Shown in pieces: positions 56,705 through 64,000 of a stretch of 64,000 bases of DNA. Under the pieces are notes generated by a model. The model did no database searches, was not told the DNA's origin, and worked only from the letters and a program-made list of their open reading frames with translations. The stretch is taken from positions 1-64,000 of the forward strand of contig NZMG01000035.1 in NCBI GenBank assembly GCA_002694465.1. The letters are read 5' to 3'. This DNA comes from Flavobacteriaceae bacterium. GTDB taxonomy: Bacteria > Bacteroidota > Bacteroidia > Flavobacteriales > Flavobacteriaceae. How positions within the stretch are numbered: position 1 is the first letter of the stretch; the number at the start of each line of letters is the position of its first letter. The position numbers were made by a program, and so were the translations under genes.

Positions 56705-56995
56705 ATGTCCTCAAAAAACAAAGGTCTGGCGACAGCCATCCAACAACTTATAGAAGCTATTTTAAAAGCCTTGGGAAAGAGCGGTAGCCGCAACCGAACT
56801 TGGCATCAGCATGTAGTACCCTATGAAGGAGATTGGGCGGTACGAAGAGAGGGAAATAAACGTATTACTTCCAAACATAGAAAACAAAGCACTGCCATAA
56901 ATAAAGCCAAAACCCTAGCCAAACGGTATAAGGCCGATGTGATTATTCACAGAGAAAGTGGGGGTATTCGAGAACGGATTAGTTATTCAGAATAG
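56705..56995 (+). CDS. DUF2188-like protein
   Basis: HVVPYEGDWAVRREGNKRITSKHRKQSTAINKAKTLAKRYKADVIIHRESGGIRE. Confidence 0.75.
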   Translation: MSSKNKGLATAIQQLIEAILKALGKSGSRNRTWHQHVVPYEGDWAVRREGNKRITSKHRKQSTAINKAKTLAKRYKADVIIHRESGGIRERISYSE

Positions 56996-57017: not shown

Positions 57018-57044
57018 AAAACCCAACACATTATGTTGGGTTTT
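57018..57044 (+). terminator. intrinsic terminator
   Basis: AACCCAACA-catta-TGTTGGGTT plus T-run. Confidence 0.85.
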
Positions 57045-57050
57045 ACTTTG

Positions 57051-57096
57051 TAGCGAGATCGAGACTTGAACTCGAGACCTCCGGGTTATGAATCCT
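57051..57096 (-). other. 3' half of tRNA-Met(CAT), putative attachment site
   Basis: Minus strand GGATTCATAACCCGGAGGTCTCGAGTTCAAGTCTCGATCTCGCTA: anticodon loop TTCATAA, variable loop, T-arm TCGAG-TTCAAGT-CTCGA, acceptor 3' strand; no D-arm or 5' acceptor. Confidence 0.75.
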
Positions 57097-57153
57097 AGAC
57101 TATATTTTAAATATATTGATTATCAGGATTTTACAAATACTTAAATTTGAAAA

Positions 57154-57183
57154 CGTATTCAAAATCGTATGCTAAACGTATGC
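57154..57183 (+). repeat. three CGTATKC heptamers spaced 12 and 11 bp
   Basis: CGTATTC (57154), CGTATGC (57166), CGTATGC (57177). Confidence 0.65.
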
Positions 57184-57553
57184 AGTTTTAGATTTTCAGA
57201 TTAAACTTATAAAGTATAAAAATAGAAGATAAAATGTTGTTGAGCAAGTGAATATTTGAGACAGGTTATAGTGGGTTGTTACAGGGGTGGAACTTTGGGG
57301 TTTGTGAAATAAAAAAAAAGGGGTATGTGCTGTTGGGTTGTAAGATGCTGAATCTTCTTAAAAGAATTTCTATTATCATCAAAATAAAATTTCAATATGT
57401 TTAAAAAAATCCAACCTTTAAAATCTCTTTAGATTTTCCATATATATTTGATTACATAAAAATTCTGGGCTTATAGGCATAATTACTTTTTTAGGTTACA
57501 GACATCGTTTATTTGATTTAGCCACATTTAAGGGTATCGTACCTATTTTAAGC

Positions 57554-57613
57554 CCTGAAAGGGAAGGTTTGGAAATTTTTGGTTGGTTTTAAAAAACTCC
57601 TTCCCTTGTCAGG
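57554..57613 (+). promoter_or_regulatory. long stem-loop upstream of the efflux operon
   Basis: CCTGAAAGGGAAGG / CCTTCCCTTGTCAGG (one bulged C), 31-nt loop, then a T-rich tract. Confidence 0.6.
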
Positions 57614-57685
57614 CACTATTTTTTCTTGAAAATTATTCCTAAAAAAATTCTAATTAACTTTACCTTATTAATTTAAAAAATTAAA

Positions 57686-58966
57686 TTGAAGCAATTATTA
57701 ATTCTTGTTTTTGTATTTCTTTCAAGTTCTTTTGTTGTGGCTCAAGAGAATGCTACACTGGACTATTTTGTAATTAAGGCAAAAGAAAATGCCCCTATTC
57801 TTAGAGAGAGTGTCAATCTTCTCAAGATTGGCGAACTTCAAAATAGTATCATTCTTGCACAAAACAAAGCCTTTCAGGTTAATGCCACTTCGGAAGTTTT
57901 AGTAGCACCTTACTTTAATAATAATGGGAAGATTATAGATGTTACCACAACACCATCTGCTAATGCTTTTGGTTATGATTTGGGTATAACAAATGGGGGT
58001 CTGTATTCTGCTCAAATCAATGTGACCAAAAATCTTTTCAATCAAGCAATTACAGATAATTTGTTGTTTCAAAATAAAATACAAAACAACACCATTGCAC
58101 TTTCTTCAGAAGAAATCCAGCATAACATTATTAAAAATATTACAGACGCTTATATACTGACCTATCAATTACAGTTGCAAGAAGATTTTACCAAAGAAAT
58201 TCTGAAAGACCTTGAGAAACGATTACAAGTAGTTGAGTTATTAGTGAAGCGTGCTGTTTTGATGGAAAGTGATTACTTGCTGTTGCAATTAGATATTGAA
58301 GGGAAAAAATTAGAACTTCAACAAATACAAAACAACCTTGAAGCAGCGATTATCCAATTGTATAGTTTAAGCGGTACGCCAATTGAAACTATTGAAAAAT
58401 TGGAAGCACCTAATTTTAATAGTGCTTTAACACCTTTACAGTTTTTTTACGAGAAAAAATTCGAGAATGACAGTCTACAAATCGTAGCCAATCAAAAGGT
58501 TTTTGAAAACCAATACAAACCGCAAGTTACAGCTTATGCCAATACAGGCTTAAATGCCGTTGAAATTCCTAATATCTATAGAAGATTTGGGGCAAGTGCT
58601 GGACTGCGGTTAACGATTCCTATTTATGATGGAAAGCAACGTAAATACAATGCTCAGCAAAGCCTTTTAAAAGCCGAAAGTTTAGCGTTTTATAGAGAAA
58701 ACGCTAAAATACAGCTAGATAACAATCTAAAAAGTATTGAACAACAAATACAAGCATTGAATAATAATATGATGCTACTTGACAAGCAGCTCAAAAAGCA
58801 ACAAAACGTGTTAGAAATCTATAAAGGAAAATTAGTCCAAGGTCAAATTTCCATTGTGGATTATCTCAATGTCATTCAGAATTATAAGCTTAATAGCTAC
58901 ACTAAATTACAAATGCAAACCAACTACTGGTTATTACAAAGCCAGTATAATTATATAAATTGGTAA
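57686..58966 (+). CDS. TolC-family outer membrane efflux protein
   Basis: Signal peptide; TolC-like coiled-coil repeats; TTG start. Confidence 0.85.
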   Translation: MKQLLILVFVFLSSSFVVAQENATLDYFVIKAKENAPILRESVNLLKIGELQNSIILAQNKAFQVNATSEVLVAPYFNNNGKIIDVTTTPSANAFGYDLGITNGGLYSAQINVTKNLFNQAITDNLLFQNKIQNNTIALSSEEIQHNIIKNITDAYILTYQLQLQEDFTKEILKDLEKRLQVVELLVKRAVLMESDYLLLQLDIEGKKLELQQIQNNLEAAIIQLYSLSGTPIETIEKLEAPNFNSALTPLQFFYEKKFENDSLQIVANQKVFENQYKPQVTAYANTGLNAVEIPNIYRRFGASAGLRLTIPIYDGKQRKYNAQQSLLKAESLAFYRENAKIQLDNNLKSIEQQIQALNNNMMLLDKQLKKQQNVLEIYKGKLVQGQISIVDYLNVIQNYKLNSYTKLQMQTNYWLLQSQYNYINW

Positions 58967-58972
58967 TGGATT

Positions 58973-59893
58973 ATGAACAAACACTATTTTAAATATATAG
59001 CTGTATTATTATTAGTTACAAATTTTTCTGCTTGTAAGAAAAACGATAAAACAATTTCAGACAAAAAAGCACCAATTAGTGTCAATGTGGTTGCCGTTCA
59101 GCAAAACGATATTAAAGAATTCCTCACGTTTAATGGCGTTACACAATATCAAAAAAAAGAAAATATCCGTTCTAATGTGACTGGTTATATTTCTTGGATG
59201 AAATATAAGATTGGTGATAACATTCACAATGGGCAAACCTTTGCGTCGGTGAGAACCAAAGAGCAAGATGCTTTAAAGGAAGCAGTTAAAATAGACAGTT
59301 CTTTGGGTAAATTTATTAGTCCAATAACAATACGAAGTAATGCTACAGGTATTATAAACACTCTGAATATAACAACCAATGACTATGTTGCTGAAGGCGA
59401 TATTTTAGCAACAGTAGTTCAGCCAAAATCCTTGACTGTGCAAGTTAATGTGCCGTATGAGTACGAAGATTTTGTGGATATAGGAACAAATTGTGAGATT
59501 CTACTTCAAAATGAAGAAACTATAACTGCAAAAATTACAGGAAAGCTACCGACTATAGACCCTTTGGCACAATCACAAATCTTTTTAATCGCATTGCCAG
59601 ATATTGATTTGCCGGAAAACCTTAATGTACAGGTAAAAACTATTTACAGGGAAGACACAACCGCCATAACCATTCCTAAAACTGCATTACAAACTAATGA
59701 GTTGCTAACTGATTATTGGGTAATGAAGATCTTTAACGATTCACTTGCTATTAAACAAAAAGTGGTGCCACAACTGAAAAACGATTCTCTGGTACAAATA
59801 CAATCCAATACTTTAAAAATTGGTGATTTGGTCATCACAAAGGGTGCATATCAAATGCAGGACTCAACTATTGTAAGCTTTAAAAAACAATGA
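58973..59893 (+). CDS. RND efflux periplasmic adaptor (HlyD/MFP family) lipoprotein
   Basis: Lipobox SAC; YKIGDNIHNGQTFASV and barrel-sandwich pattern; between TolC and RND genes. Confidence 0.85.
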   Translation: MNKHYFKYIAVLLLVTNFSACKKNDKTISDKKAPISVNVVAVQQNDIKEFLTFNGVTQYQKKENIRSNVTGYISWMKYKIGDNIHNGQTFASVRTKEQDALKEAVKIDSSLGKFISPITIRSNATGIINTLNITTNDYVAEGDILATVVQPKSLTVQVNVPYEYEDFVDIGTNCEILLQNEETITAKITGKLPTIDPLAQSQIFLIALPDIDLPENLNVQVKTIYREDTTAITIPKTALQTNELLTDYWVMKIFNDSLAIKQKVVPQLKNDSLVQIQSNTLKIGDLVITKGAYQMQDSTIVSFKKQ

Positions 59894-62889
59894 AAAAACT
59901 GCATTCCAATTATAAGTTTCCGCTACTTGCTATAGGTATTATTCTACTTTTAGGAGGCGTTTTTGCCTATCAAAATTTAAAAACAGGCTTATTTCCAGAT
60001 ATTACCTTTCCAAAGATTAAGGTCATTGCAGATGCAGGACAGCAACCTGTGGATAAAATGATGACTACGGTAACTATTCCATTAGAGAATATCATTCGTC
60101 GTACTGAAGGCCTGCAATACATACGCAGCACTACGTCCAGAGGAAGTTGTGAGATTTCGGTGTTTTTGGATTGGAGTACTGATATTGATGTTGCCAAATC
60201 ACAGATAGAATCCTTTATCAATCAATCGCAGGGAAGCATCCTTCCCAATACGGTGTTTTCTGTTGAAAAAATGAACCCGTCTATCTTACCAGTAATGGGT
60301 TATTCGTTGGAAGGCGATGGGCTTTCACAAGTCGATTTAAAAAAAATAGCGAAGTTCCAGATTAAACCCTATCTGGCAGCTACCAAAGGTGTGTCTGACA
60401 TAGCCGTTATTGGTGGTAAAGACAAAGAGTTTCAGGTGGTTTTAAGACCAGACATCATTAAATCTTTGGGTATTTCCATAGCTACGATTCAGAATGCCAT
60501 TGTGAATTCAAATTTATTGCAATCCAATGGATACATCACAGATTTTAATAGAATGTACCTAACCCTTACGGACAATGCTGTAGATGATATTGATGACTTG
60601 CAGAATTTAGTTATCATCAACAGTCCCAATCGATTGATTCGATTAAAAGATGTGGCTACGGTTGAAGTTAATGAGGTAAAGGAATATGTGAAAATATTGG
60701 CCAATGGTAAAAATGTGCCAATCATAGCTATTATAAAACAGCCCAATGCCAACCTTATTGAAGTCAATAAAAATATTGAACAAAAAGTTGCTGAACTATC
60801 TACAATACTTCCAAAAGGTGTCGTATTAAAACCCTATTACAAACAAGCCGATTTTGTAACCACGAGTATTGCGAGTATTAAAGATGTTCTTTGGATTGGG
60901 TTGGTATTAGCCCTTTTGGTCGTGATTTTCTTTCTACGTTCATTCTCGGCGAGTTTGGTAGTACTCTTTACCATTCCTGTATCCTTATCCTTAACACTTA
61001 TTGTATTGGATGCCATAGGCTACACCTTCAACATTATGACTCTCGGTGCTATTGCCGCTGCCATAGGATTGATGATTGATGATGTGGTCATTATCATTGA
61101 GCAAATTCATAAAATACGAGAGGAACACCCAAAAGAAAAAATGGATTGGGTAGCCCACGAAGCTATTACCCACTTATTGCCGGCAATGATAGGCTCTTCG
61201 TTAAGCACTCTGGTTATTTTTATACCATTTGTGTTAATGACAGGTGTCGCCGGAGCGTATTTTAAGGTGATGGCCTTTAGTATGATTATAGCGCTGGCAG
61301 CTTCGTTTTTGGTGACTTGGTTGTTAGTACCTGTGCTGTCTATCGTCTTCACAAAGAATAAAGAAATAAACCACAAACATCAACCAAAAACCAAATGGAT
61401 TCATAATATTTTGGGAAAACCCATTATCGGGATTGCATTTTTATTGATTTGTGTGGGAATACTTGTGGTGATTCCGTCCAAATTACCTTCCGGATTTTTA
61501 CCAGAAATGGATGAAGGAAGCATCGTTTTGGATTTTAATAGTCCATCAGGAACCACTTTAGAAGAAACCGACAGGATGCTTCAAATCGTAAATGGCGTTC
61601 TGGACACACAGCCTGAAGTAGAAGCCTATTCAGCACGATTAGGAACGCAAATGGGCTTTTTTATTACCGAACCCAACCGAGGCGATTATCTAATTAAACT
61701 GAAGGATAAACGAAACAAAACTACTACTCAAGTTTCGGACGAAATCAGAAAACGTGTTGAAGAAAAAGCCCCACAATTAACCATAGATTTTGGTCAGGTG
61801 ATTGGTGATATGTTAGGAGATTTAATGAGTTCGGTACAACCCATAGAGATAAAAGTCTTTGGCACTAATATCAATACCTTGGAAAACTTATCACAAGAAA
61901 TAGCGAGACAAGTTGAGACGGTACAGGGAACAGCTGATGTAAATGATGGTATTATAGTTGCTGGCCCAAGTTTATCTATAGTGCCCAATGTTCCCAAACT
62001 AGCACAATTAGGAATGACTGTGGCCGATTTTCAATTGCAATTACAGACGCAAGTTGAGGGAACGCTGGTAAGCTCTATGATAGACAAAGAGCAAATGATA
62101 GATATACGTCTTATTTATCCTGATGCGCTAAAAACATCTGTATCTGATATTAGAAATACGGTTATTTTATTACCAAGCGGTTCAAGTGTGCCTATTAATC
62201 AAGTGGCAAGTATTGAAATGGGTAAAGGTGTTGCTGAAATCAACCGTGAAAATCAAAAATCGATGGGTGTGATTACCGCACGACTCAACAATCGTGATTT
62301 AGGCTCTACCTTAAAGGATATTCAAAGCCATCTTACAAAAAACCTATCGCTTCCGGCTGGTTATACTATTGAGTATGGAGGGGCATACCAAGAACAACAA
62401 AAGGCGTTTAAGGAATTAATGATGATTTTAATTTCGGCGATATTACTGGTTTTTGTGGTTATTCTGTTCTTGTTTAGAAAGCTTAAAATAGCATTGGCCA
62501 TTATTGTGATTGCTGTATTGGGTGTGGCAGGAAGTTTATTAAGCCTGTACTTAACAGGAACACCACTAAACGTAGGGAGTTATACCGGAATTATAATGAT
62601 TGTCGGCATCATTGGAGAAAATTCGATTTTTACCTACAGACAGTACCAAGAAAGTGATACCTCGTTATCACATATTGAAAAAATTGAATATTCCATTGCA
62701 GCACGTTTACGCCCAAAATTGATGACAGCATTGGCTGCAATAATGGCATTAACACCCTTGGCTTTGGGTATTGGCGCTGGTGCGCAATTGCATCAACCTT
62801 TGGCTATTGCTGTTATTGGAGGGTTGTGTTTTGCTTTACCGTTGTTGCTGATAGTGCTACCAACAATTATGAAGATAATTAAAGAATAG
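59890..62889 (+). CDS. efflux RND transporter permease (AcrB/CusA superfamily)
   Basis: 999 aa; AIGLMIDDVVIIIEQIHK TM4 motif; ATGA overlap with adaptor. Confidence 0.93.
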   Translation: MKKLHSNYKFPLLAIGIILLLGGVFAYQNLKTGLFPDITFPKIKVIADAGQQPVDKMMTTVTIPLENIIRRTEGLQYIRSTTSRGSCEISVFLDWSTDIDVAKSQIESFINQSQGSILPNTVFSVEKMNPSILPVMGYSLEGDGLSQVDLKKIAKFQIKPYLAATKGVSDIAVIGGKDKEFQVVLRPDIIKSLGISIATIQNAIVNSNLLQSNGYITDFNRMYLTLTDNAVDDIDDLQNLVIINSPNRLIRLKDVATVEVNEVKEYVKILANGKNVPIIAIIKQPNANLIEVNKNIEQKVAELSTILPKGVVLKPYYKQADFVTTSIASIKDVLWIGLVLALLVVIFFLRSFSASLVVLFTIPVSLSLTLIVLDAIGYTFNIMTLGAIAAAIGLMIDDVVIIIEQIHKIREEHPKEKMDWVAHEAITHLLPAMIGSSLSTLVIFIPFVLMTGVAGAYFKVMAFSMIIALAASFLVTWLLVPVLSIVFTKNKEINHKHQPKTKWIHNILGKPIIGIAFLLICVGILVVIPSKLPSGFLPEMDEGSIVLDFNSPSGTTLEETDRMLQIVNGVLDTQPEVEAYSARLGTQMGFFITEPNRGDYLIKLKDKRNKTTTQVSDEIRKRVEEKAPQLTIDFGQVIGDMLGDLMSSVQPIEIKVFGTNINTLENLSQEIARQVETVQGTADVNDGIIVAGPSLSIVPNVPKLAQLGMTVADFQLQLQTQVEGTLVSSMIDKEQMIDIRLIYPDALKTSVSDIRNTVILLPSGSSVPINQVASIEMGKGVAEINRENQKSMGVITARLNNRDLGSTLKDIQSHLTKNLSLPAGYTIEYGGAYQEQQKAFKELMMILISAILLVFVVILFLFRKLKIALAIIVIAVLGVAGSLLSLYLTGTPLNVGSYTGIIMIVGIIGENSIFTYRQYQESDTSLSHIEKIEYSIAARLRPKLMTALAAIMALTPLALGIGAGAQLHQPLAIAVIGGLCFALPLLLIVLPTIMKIIKE

Positions 62890-62890
62890 A

Positions 62891-64000
62891 ATGAAAACAC
62901 TAAAAATTATCACCCTATTGTTGTTTTCTTCCCCAGTATTCGCCCAAGTGGGAACCAATGGCCAGGATAGAAAAGAAGAAGGAAGACCTATTAAGGAGTA
63001 TAACCTAACCATTGAAGAAAATGAAATGACACTCGCTGGTGTAACCGCAAAAGCAATGACCATTAACGGGAGTATACCCGGACCGGTCTTGGAATTTACT
63101 GAAGGTGACCTCGCCCTTATCAACGTCACCAATAAAATGGACGTGGAAACTTCTGTACATTGGCACGGACTGATACTTCCCAATTTTTATGACGGTGTGC
63201 CCTATCTGACCACGCCACCGATAAAACCAGGAACTACTTTTCAATATAGAATCCCAATCAACCAATCCGGCACCTACTGGTACCATTCGCACACAATGTT
63301 ACAGGAACAAAAGGGTGTTTATGGCTCAATTATGATTCACCCCAAGGAAAAAACTTTGGAATATGATAAGGATTTAGTCGTGGTACTCTCTGATTGGACG
63401 AACGAAAAACCAATGAACGTACTGCGAAACTTAAAGCGTGGAAATGAGTGGTATCAGGTCAAAAAAGGTACGGCGGTTCCTTTGAGCAGAGTAATAAAAG
63501 AAGGGGCGTTTGGCGCTCAGCTCAAGTTTTGGCGCGACCGTATGGAAGGTGCAGATATTGCCGATATTTATTACCCTGCATTTCTAACCAATGGAAAGTC
63601 GTTAGCAGAATATCCCGAATTCAAATCAGGTGAAAGGGTACGGCTTCGCTTTATCAATGCATCTGCCTCTACCTATTACTGGATGGACTTTGGTGGTGGC
63701 GACCCAATGGTCGTTTCAGGCGACGGTATCGATGTGGAACCTGTATCCAAAAGCCGATTTCTATTTGGTATTGCCGAAACCTACGATGTTATCGTAACCA
63801 TTTCCGATGGCACTTTAGAAGTTACCGCCACCGCTCAGGACGGTTCTGGAAGCACTTCCTTACAATTGGGACAAGGAACGATATATCCAGCCAAAAGAAT
63901 GGAGAGACCTGACAAGGTGGCAATGATGAAACAAATGGCCAAAATGGATATGAAGATGGGTGCACCGGCAATGGTCGGTAACAAAAAGAAGAACACACCC
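62891..64000 (+). CDS. multicopper oxidase (CopA-like), truncated by window end
   Basis: SVHWHGLILPNFYDGVP, GTYWYHSHTMLQEQKGVYG, Met-rich MMKQMAKMDMKMGAPAM; open at window edge, hence absent from ORF track. Confidence 0.9.
   Translation, partial: MKTLKIITLLLFSSPVFAQVGTNGQDRKEEGRPIKEYNLTIEENEMTLAGVTAKAMTINGSIPGPVLEFTEGDLALINVTNKMDVETSVHWHGLILPNFYDGVPYLTTPPIKPGTTFQYRIPINQSGTYWYHSHTMLQEQKGVYGSIMIHPKEKTLEYDKDLVVVLSDWTNEKPMNVLRNLKRGNEWYQVKKGTAVPLSRVIKEGAFGAQLKFWRDRMEGADIADIYYPAFLTNGKSLAEYPEFKSGERVRLRFINASASTYYWMDFGGGDPMVVSGDGIDVEPVSKSRFLFGIAETYDVIVTISDGTLEVTATAQDGSGSTSLQLGQGTIYPAKRMERPDKVAMMKQMAKMDMKMGAPAMVGNKKKNTP

Follow-up and report, generated by a model that had tools for sequence, protein, structure and literature searches.

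The DNA analysed here (the window) comprises positions 1-64,000 of C35 (NZMG01000035.1), a 173-kb contig in the 3.24-Mb genome assembly of a Flavobacteriaceae bacterium (GCA_002694465.1), and toward its right end it contains one extremity of what we interpret as a genomic island. On the minus strand, positions 57050-57095 correspond to the 3' part of a tRNA-Met, which starts at the anticodon stem-loop, finishes with CTAC and lacks the D-arm and the 5' acceptor; the initial annotation had recognized the identity of this fragment but placed it one base off, at 57051-57096. Neither ARAGORN nor Rfam at gathering thresholds called a tRNA inside the window, as expected for a fragment rather than a whole gene, and an Rfam scan of the window by E-value returned matches at chance level only. 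About 33.3 kb to the right of the fragment ARAGORN identifies an intact elongator tRNA-Met(CAT) on the minus strand (C35:90370-90444), and the two loci share an exact 49-bp repeat in the same orientation (57047-57095 on the minus strand, and C35:90367-90415), which at the distal attachment (att) site consists of the displaced tRNA-Met 3' part plus 3 nt. A 43-nt sequence has two exact copies in the genome, one in the fragment and the other at C35:90370-90412 on the same strand; with 3 mismatches allowed the pattern recovered the same two places only across the whole genome and its reversed control recovered none, which excludes a chance match. Directly adjoining the intact tRNA, on its island side, is a gene for a 444-amino acid tyrosine integrase (Int; C35:88981-90315, minus strand, PF00589), whose start lies 54 bp past the tRNA 3' end. 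The element DNA, matching tRNA-Met and nearby tyrosine integrase that had been anticipated to the right are thus all present on the same contig, and the earlier description of the island as unclosed does not hold, as its second end was found there and only the window was too short to include it. The whole island spans C35:57050-90412 (33.3 kb), of which the left 6.95 kb (57050-64000) fall within the window.

The chromosomal context of these features is conserved in relatives. To the right of the tRNA lie genes for a START-domain-like protein, an aminotransferase, a YqgE-like protein, HU, Fmt and RecQ, which are kept in all or most of nine relatives, and on the left hisS and its neighbours are common to several relatives (flank genes were named from reading their translations). 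In the congener Halomarinibacterium sedimenti CAU 1614 (G002) both flanks are 88-100% identical, and the left-flank genes (88-98%) stand beside its own outermost fragment, in agreement with the earlier expectation that chromosome lies to the left. The last left-flank gene (56705-56995, plus strand, 96 amino acids) has a 98% identical counterpart at this position in the congener and is therefore probably chromosomal or the relic of an older insertion; its product is a match (E 6e-20) to PDC-S16, a candidate family of PADLOC. It is followed by a terminator at 57018-57044, present as previously annotated, which also serves this gene. Joining the two chromosomal flanks puts this terminator directly after the tRNA, so that it fits as the original tRNA-Met terminator, and a nearly identical terminator occupies the same position in the congener. 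Empty sites, which had been proposed as a check, were recovered in several relatives from other genera: in G029 a single tRNA-Met, directly before its own terminator, lies between hisS and the START-domain gene and aminotransferase, and G033, G009 and G010 likewise have one tRNA-Met copy followed by a terminator; relatives without an island have no lone fragment. At the same tRNA the congener carries four exact copies of the fragment, 24, 33 and 12 kb apart, defining a tandem array whose cargo is unrelated to that of the C35 island and which encodes a 98% identical integrase. The empty sites and conserved flanks imply that the island was inserted into tRNA-Met and that 57047-57095 is its distal end. 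With an intact tRNA at one end, a 3' fragment that matches it and points the same way at the other, an integrase adjoining the att site and intact empty sites in relatives, it is an ordinary tRNA-borne genomic island, the unusual part of which is its att architecture.

Relatives of the integrase (E 1e-20 or better) were found in 86 of 399 genomes of the family; in a class-wide sample matches with E below 1e-40 occurred only in the same family, and plasmids yielded distant relatives only. All 47 distinct integrase genes examined lie behind a tRNA-Met core, belonging to an intact elongator tRNA in 26 cases, an intact initiator tRNA in 11 and a displaced fragment in 10. Across related integrase genes the gap between the tRNA end and the ATG measures 50-56 nt and holds a stem of 10-12 bp with a T-run directly before the ATG, with pairing kept across 22 different 5' arms. 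The tRNA-Met at C35:90370-90444 now reads into this element-supplied hairpin, whose probable role is to give the tRNA back a terminator and to shield int. A structure model was obtained for the 98% identical integrase of the congener, in which residues 1-25 are disordered (predicted local distance difference test score, pLDDT, about 30), followed by a domain at about 27-116 and then by the core-binding and catalytic domains. Its best solved fold match is lambda Int (PDB 1z1b), which aligns over the arm-binding, core-binding and catalytic regions at about 14% identity, and the comparison provides no counterpart for the disordered N-terminal tail coded by the repeats described below; a sequence search of the PDB with the integrase profile found nothing. 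The model thus suggests, with modest confidence, a lambda-type integrase in which arm-binding, core-binding and catalytic domains are all present.

In integrases of the lambda type the N-terminal domain binds arm sites that flank the core on either side, and repeats resembling such sites are found on both sides of the core in the C35 island. Codons 11-21 of int (C35:90255-90285) contain GCATACG three times with 12-bp spacing and in frame, encoding the peptide AYDSAYESAYD in the predicted disordered segment ahead of the arm-binding domain. At the distal end, three direct repeats on the minus strand, GCATACG (57177-57183), GCATACG (57166-57172) and GAATACG (57154-57160), spaced by 11 and 12 and with the last 69 nt from the core, are predicted to be the distal arm-type sites. 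Copies of the tRNA 3' end were located in 33 genomes and many far ends were examined, revealing that the type of motif in the int codons is paired with that at the far end: GCATACG with GCATACG, GAACACG (EHDL) with GAACACG, and GTACAC (VH) with GTACAC. For one distant integrase (about 33% identical) both ends have GTACCTAAAAC (VPKTVPKT). The int-side and far-end repeats change together and stay in frame across 30-35 related elements. At least one nine-mer is shared between the two sides in 32 of 35 elements (shuffled mean 16.9), and the shared nine-mers total 243 versus a maximum of 153 in 20,000 shuffles, in a set that includes a few elements of a class with intergenic tRNA-side repeats (GTACAACAT, GTACAGAAT, spacing 11). 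Where tandem arrays are mixed, matches fall mainly on the diagonal, for example [[3,0],[0,8]] in G063, and 12 versus 0-2 for the second element of the G002 array. The geometry is also constrained: the distance from the core to the distal repeats is mostly 68-72 nt in the main class and 58-60 nt in the GTACAC class, and the repeats in int mostly start near +82, +94 and +106, nearly all in frame 0. Codon usage in the same int genes departs sharply in this segment, with a Tyr TAC:TAT ratio of 79:1 in codons 8-26 versus 265:722 elsewhere, and a His CAC:CAT ratio of 56:4 versus 99:248. When int was recoded synonymously in 2,000 trials, the 189 shared nine-mers fell to an average of 21 and never exceeded 50, implying that it is the DNA, not the peptide, which matches the far end. 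We regard the within-array and synonymous controls as the stronger of these tests.

The same plan extends to more distant integrases. Leeuwenhoekiella phage Arctus_1, with a 33% identical integrase and its core at the end of the record, has another motif, with IANKIANK encoded in the int codons and a near-matching distal copy at -68. Five integrases from viral contigs (L206, L208-L210 and L212) start with 12-bp in-frame repeats, and viral-contig integrases of 27% identity are without the N-terminal repeat tail. At initiator or elongator tRNA-Met there is also a separate class of element, which is flanked at each end by intergenic repeats at 11-bp spacing (GTACAACAT or GTACAGAAT) and has no int start on the tRNA side (G145:C1:1666222-1715253, G154:C1:734499-778989 and G397:C1:4156050-4252940). 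Upstream of the distal arms we noticed by eye TAnnTTTG-like stretches, which were considered as a candidate int promoter in the circular form.

Based on these observations we consider it highly probable that the 33.3-kb island was put into the 3' half of the elongator tRNA-Met by a lambda-type Int for which the repeats are arm sites. Recombination would have taken place inside the identity block extending from the anticodon to the 3' end, such that the whole tRNA was rebuilt from the chromosomal 5' half and an element-borne 3' half, and the original 3' half with its terminator was displaced and left at 57018-57095. Between the rebuilt tRNA and the int start the element would provide a replacement terminator hairpin. 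The integrase would bridge core and arm sites in the manner of lambda Int, using as arms the distal repeats at 57154-57183, about 70 bp inside the end, and the repeats in int codons 11-21. The int-side arm sites would lie inside the reading frame because only about 53 nt are available between the tRNA and the ATG, and the frame would stay open because 12 bp correspond to four codons. We further put forward, tentatively and as somewhat more likely to prove wrong than right, that in-frame 12-bp int-side arm sites are a property of the Flavobacteriaceae tRNA-Met integrases and of distant phage integrases, that a dispensable peptide tail co-evolves with them while the distal arm tracks, and that bound Int would block its own transcription from inside the gene.

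Several points count against this interpretation. Excision, a circular form and binding by Int were not observed, and the integrase model was built on 20 sequences with a predicted template-modelling score (pTM) of 0.51. The repeat tests were designed after the pattern had been seen, and the elements compared are related to each other; two of them, G279#2 and G214, share no nine-mer, yet G214 has similar repeats with 12-bp spacing. The GC content of the island differs little from that of the flank (33.8% versus 36.7%), and the companion gene orf2, located immediately after int in all 21 homologs, is out of frame with its congener counterpart through a single additional A in a run of eight.

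Taken by itself within the window, where it stands alone as merely half a tRNA, the fragment might pass for a decayed tRNA pseudogene or a local duplication with no island involved, but an intact tRNA with an integrase alongside, 33 kb away, matches it exactly over 49 bp, and together with the relatives with empty sites and the congener with other cargo at the same site this leaves the explanation a practically negligible probability, provided that the contig is correctly assembled. We also find it very improbable that the repeats belong to the protein level, as a tail of repetitive peptide from which the DNA repeats simply follow: they are indeed in frame, and the AYES and EHDL peptide repeats recur, but the far-end copies match at the DNA level, the synonymous positions are nearly fixed and recoding abolishes the match. 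A more serious, if still unlikely, alternative is that the 12-bp repeats are operators, bound by an element regulator or by an Int acting purely as an autorepressor, and not arm-type recombination sites. The int-side repeats fall within the first 70 bp of int, and the IntS protein of KplE1 represses its own gene from its binding to the att site (PMC2951348); however, in the integrated state the far-end copy is 30 kb from int and keeps a fixed distance to the core, which is expected of arms and needless for an operator. The two roles are compatible and not mutually exclusive, and the reading we prefer is that the repeats are arm-type Int sites lying within the int coding sequence.

As an island, the C35 element shares with the tRNA-borne islands catalogued in Islander (PMC4383910) the tyrosine integrase, the tRNA that is split and restored, and the displaced 3' fragment at the far end; as an island nothing sets it apart from them, and it represents a new member. 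Within the Flavobacteriia it is reminiscent of the 10K genomic island of Riemerella anatipestifer, whose tyrosine integrase lies beside a tRNA and for which integration and excision were shown experimentally; that island uses tRNA-Arg rather than tRNA-Met, and the passages on it do not discuss arm sites (PMC6764341). The closest parallels to the att region come from phages. In the KplE1 prophage of E. coli (intS/attL) the tRNA comes first, int has the same orientation and the att region with its arm sites lies over the int start, but the arm sites overlap the int promoter (PMC2951348), whereas the C35 int-side repeats are in-frame 12-bp units inside the coding sequence. The attP of Cluster K mycobacteriophages such as CrimD similarly has the core 5' of int, a stem-loop terminator between the core and the int-side arms, and paired 11-bp arm sites on both sides, with the int N-terminus proposed as their reader (PMC3203893). 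By our reading of its sequence, the CrimD int-side arm repeats are inverted and end about 14-17 bp before the annotated int start, unlike the direct repeats within int codons in C35. The placement of the predicted arm sites in coding sequence is what separates the C35 layout from those of KplE1 and CrimD, and we found no published description of arm sites within an int coding sequence in the open-access literature.

The same tRNA-Met is occupied by diverse elements in other genomes. The array of the congener (G002:C8:141222-210225; L021-L025) comprises three tandem elements. The first is metal-efflux-like and has integrase A; the second combines a different integrase with a type III restriction-modification system and a ZorB-like protein; the third has an integrase-A-type distal end but no recognised integrase. 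In another genus, a 14-kb island (G030:C2:213784-227806; L032, L033) carries a type I restriction-modification system, indicating that this tRNA-Met also hosts defence islands. On the 3' side of distal copies, beyond the outermost att copy, L130, L154, L156 and L183 retain remnants of int 5' ends that are interrupted by stops or frameshifts and resemble scars left by islands that once occupied this site. Some elongator tRNA-Met genes (L038:9873-9947, L082:1367-1441, L094:1370-1444 and others) have ATCGTGC in the T-loop in place of TTCRANN, an apparent swap of the T54-A58 pair to A54-T58, and are still called as tRNA-Met by ARAGORN.

From the fragment to the start of the efflux operon at 57686 there is no large open reading frame, as the initial annotation had stated. 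The operon, on the plus strand, encodes an outer membrane efflux protein (57686-58966; PF02321, E 8.9e-19), a HlyD/CusB-like membrane fusion protein (58973-59893; PF13437, PF16576), an RND efflux pump (59890-62889; PF00873, E 2.3e-201) and an 800-amino acid multicopper oxidase-like protein (62891-64000 in the window, running to C35:65293). Pfam (OEP, HlyD, ACR_tran) thus bears out the efflux components named earlier, and the multicopper oxidase is assigned from copper-site motifs seen by eye in the reading frame. Further cargo recognized by Pfam includes a VIT-family transporter, a P-type ATPase, a DUF4010/MgtC protein, an FAD monooxygenase, a DedA-type VTT protein, two DUF1003 proteins, a patatin, an MscS channel, an amino-acid permease, a response regulator, a kinase, several PepSY-like proteins, a fatty acid hydroxylase, a DUF5686 protein and two PAP2 proteins, which together constitute a metal, efflux and envelope-stress gene set. 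The DUF4010 gene occurs in 8 of 300 genomes of the family and was not found in the congener, as expected of accessory DNA. No Pfam family for conjugation or mobilisation was found in the 30 cargo proteins searched, nor phage structural or lysis genes among the cargo Pfam matches, so that by these searches the island classifies neither as an integrative and conjugative element nor as a prophage. As no conjugation gene was recognised and orf2 is frameshifted, the island may now be grounded, or the extra A in orf2 may be a sequencing error. The orf2 product gave no convincing Pfam family and no PDB fold match; a role in directionality is our guess.

The att architecture described here lets the arm-site specificity of an integrase be read from sequence alone, since each element displays its predicted arm motif twice, once in the int codons and once at the far end. 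Such elements supply arm-binding domains and DNA motifs in many natural pairings, a covariation resource for Int specificity, and the repeats help to delimit islands at both ends across many Flavobacteriaceae genomes. In these elements the codons of a gene appear to be constrained by the probable binding sites of its own protein.

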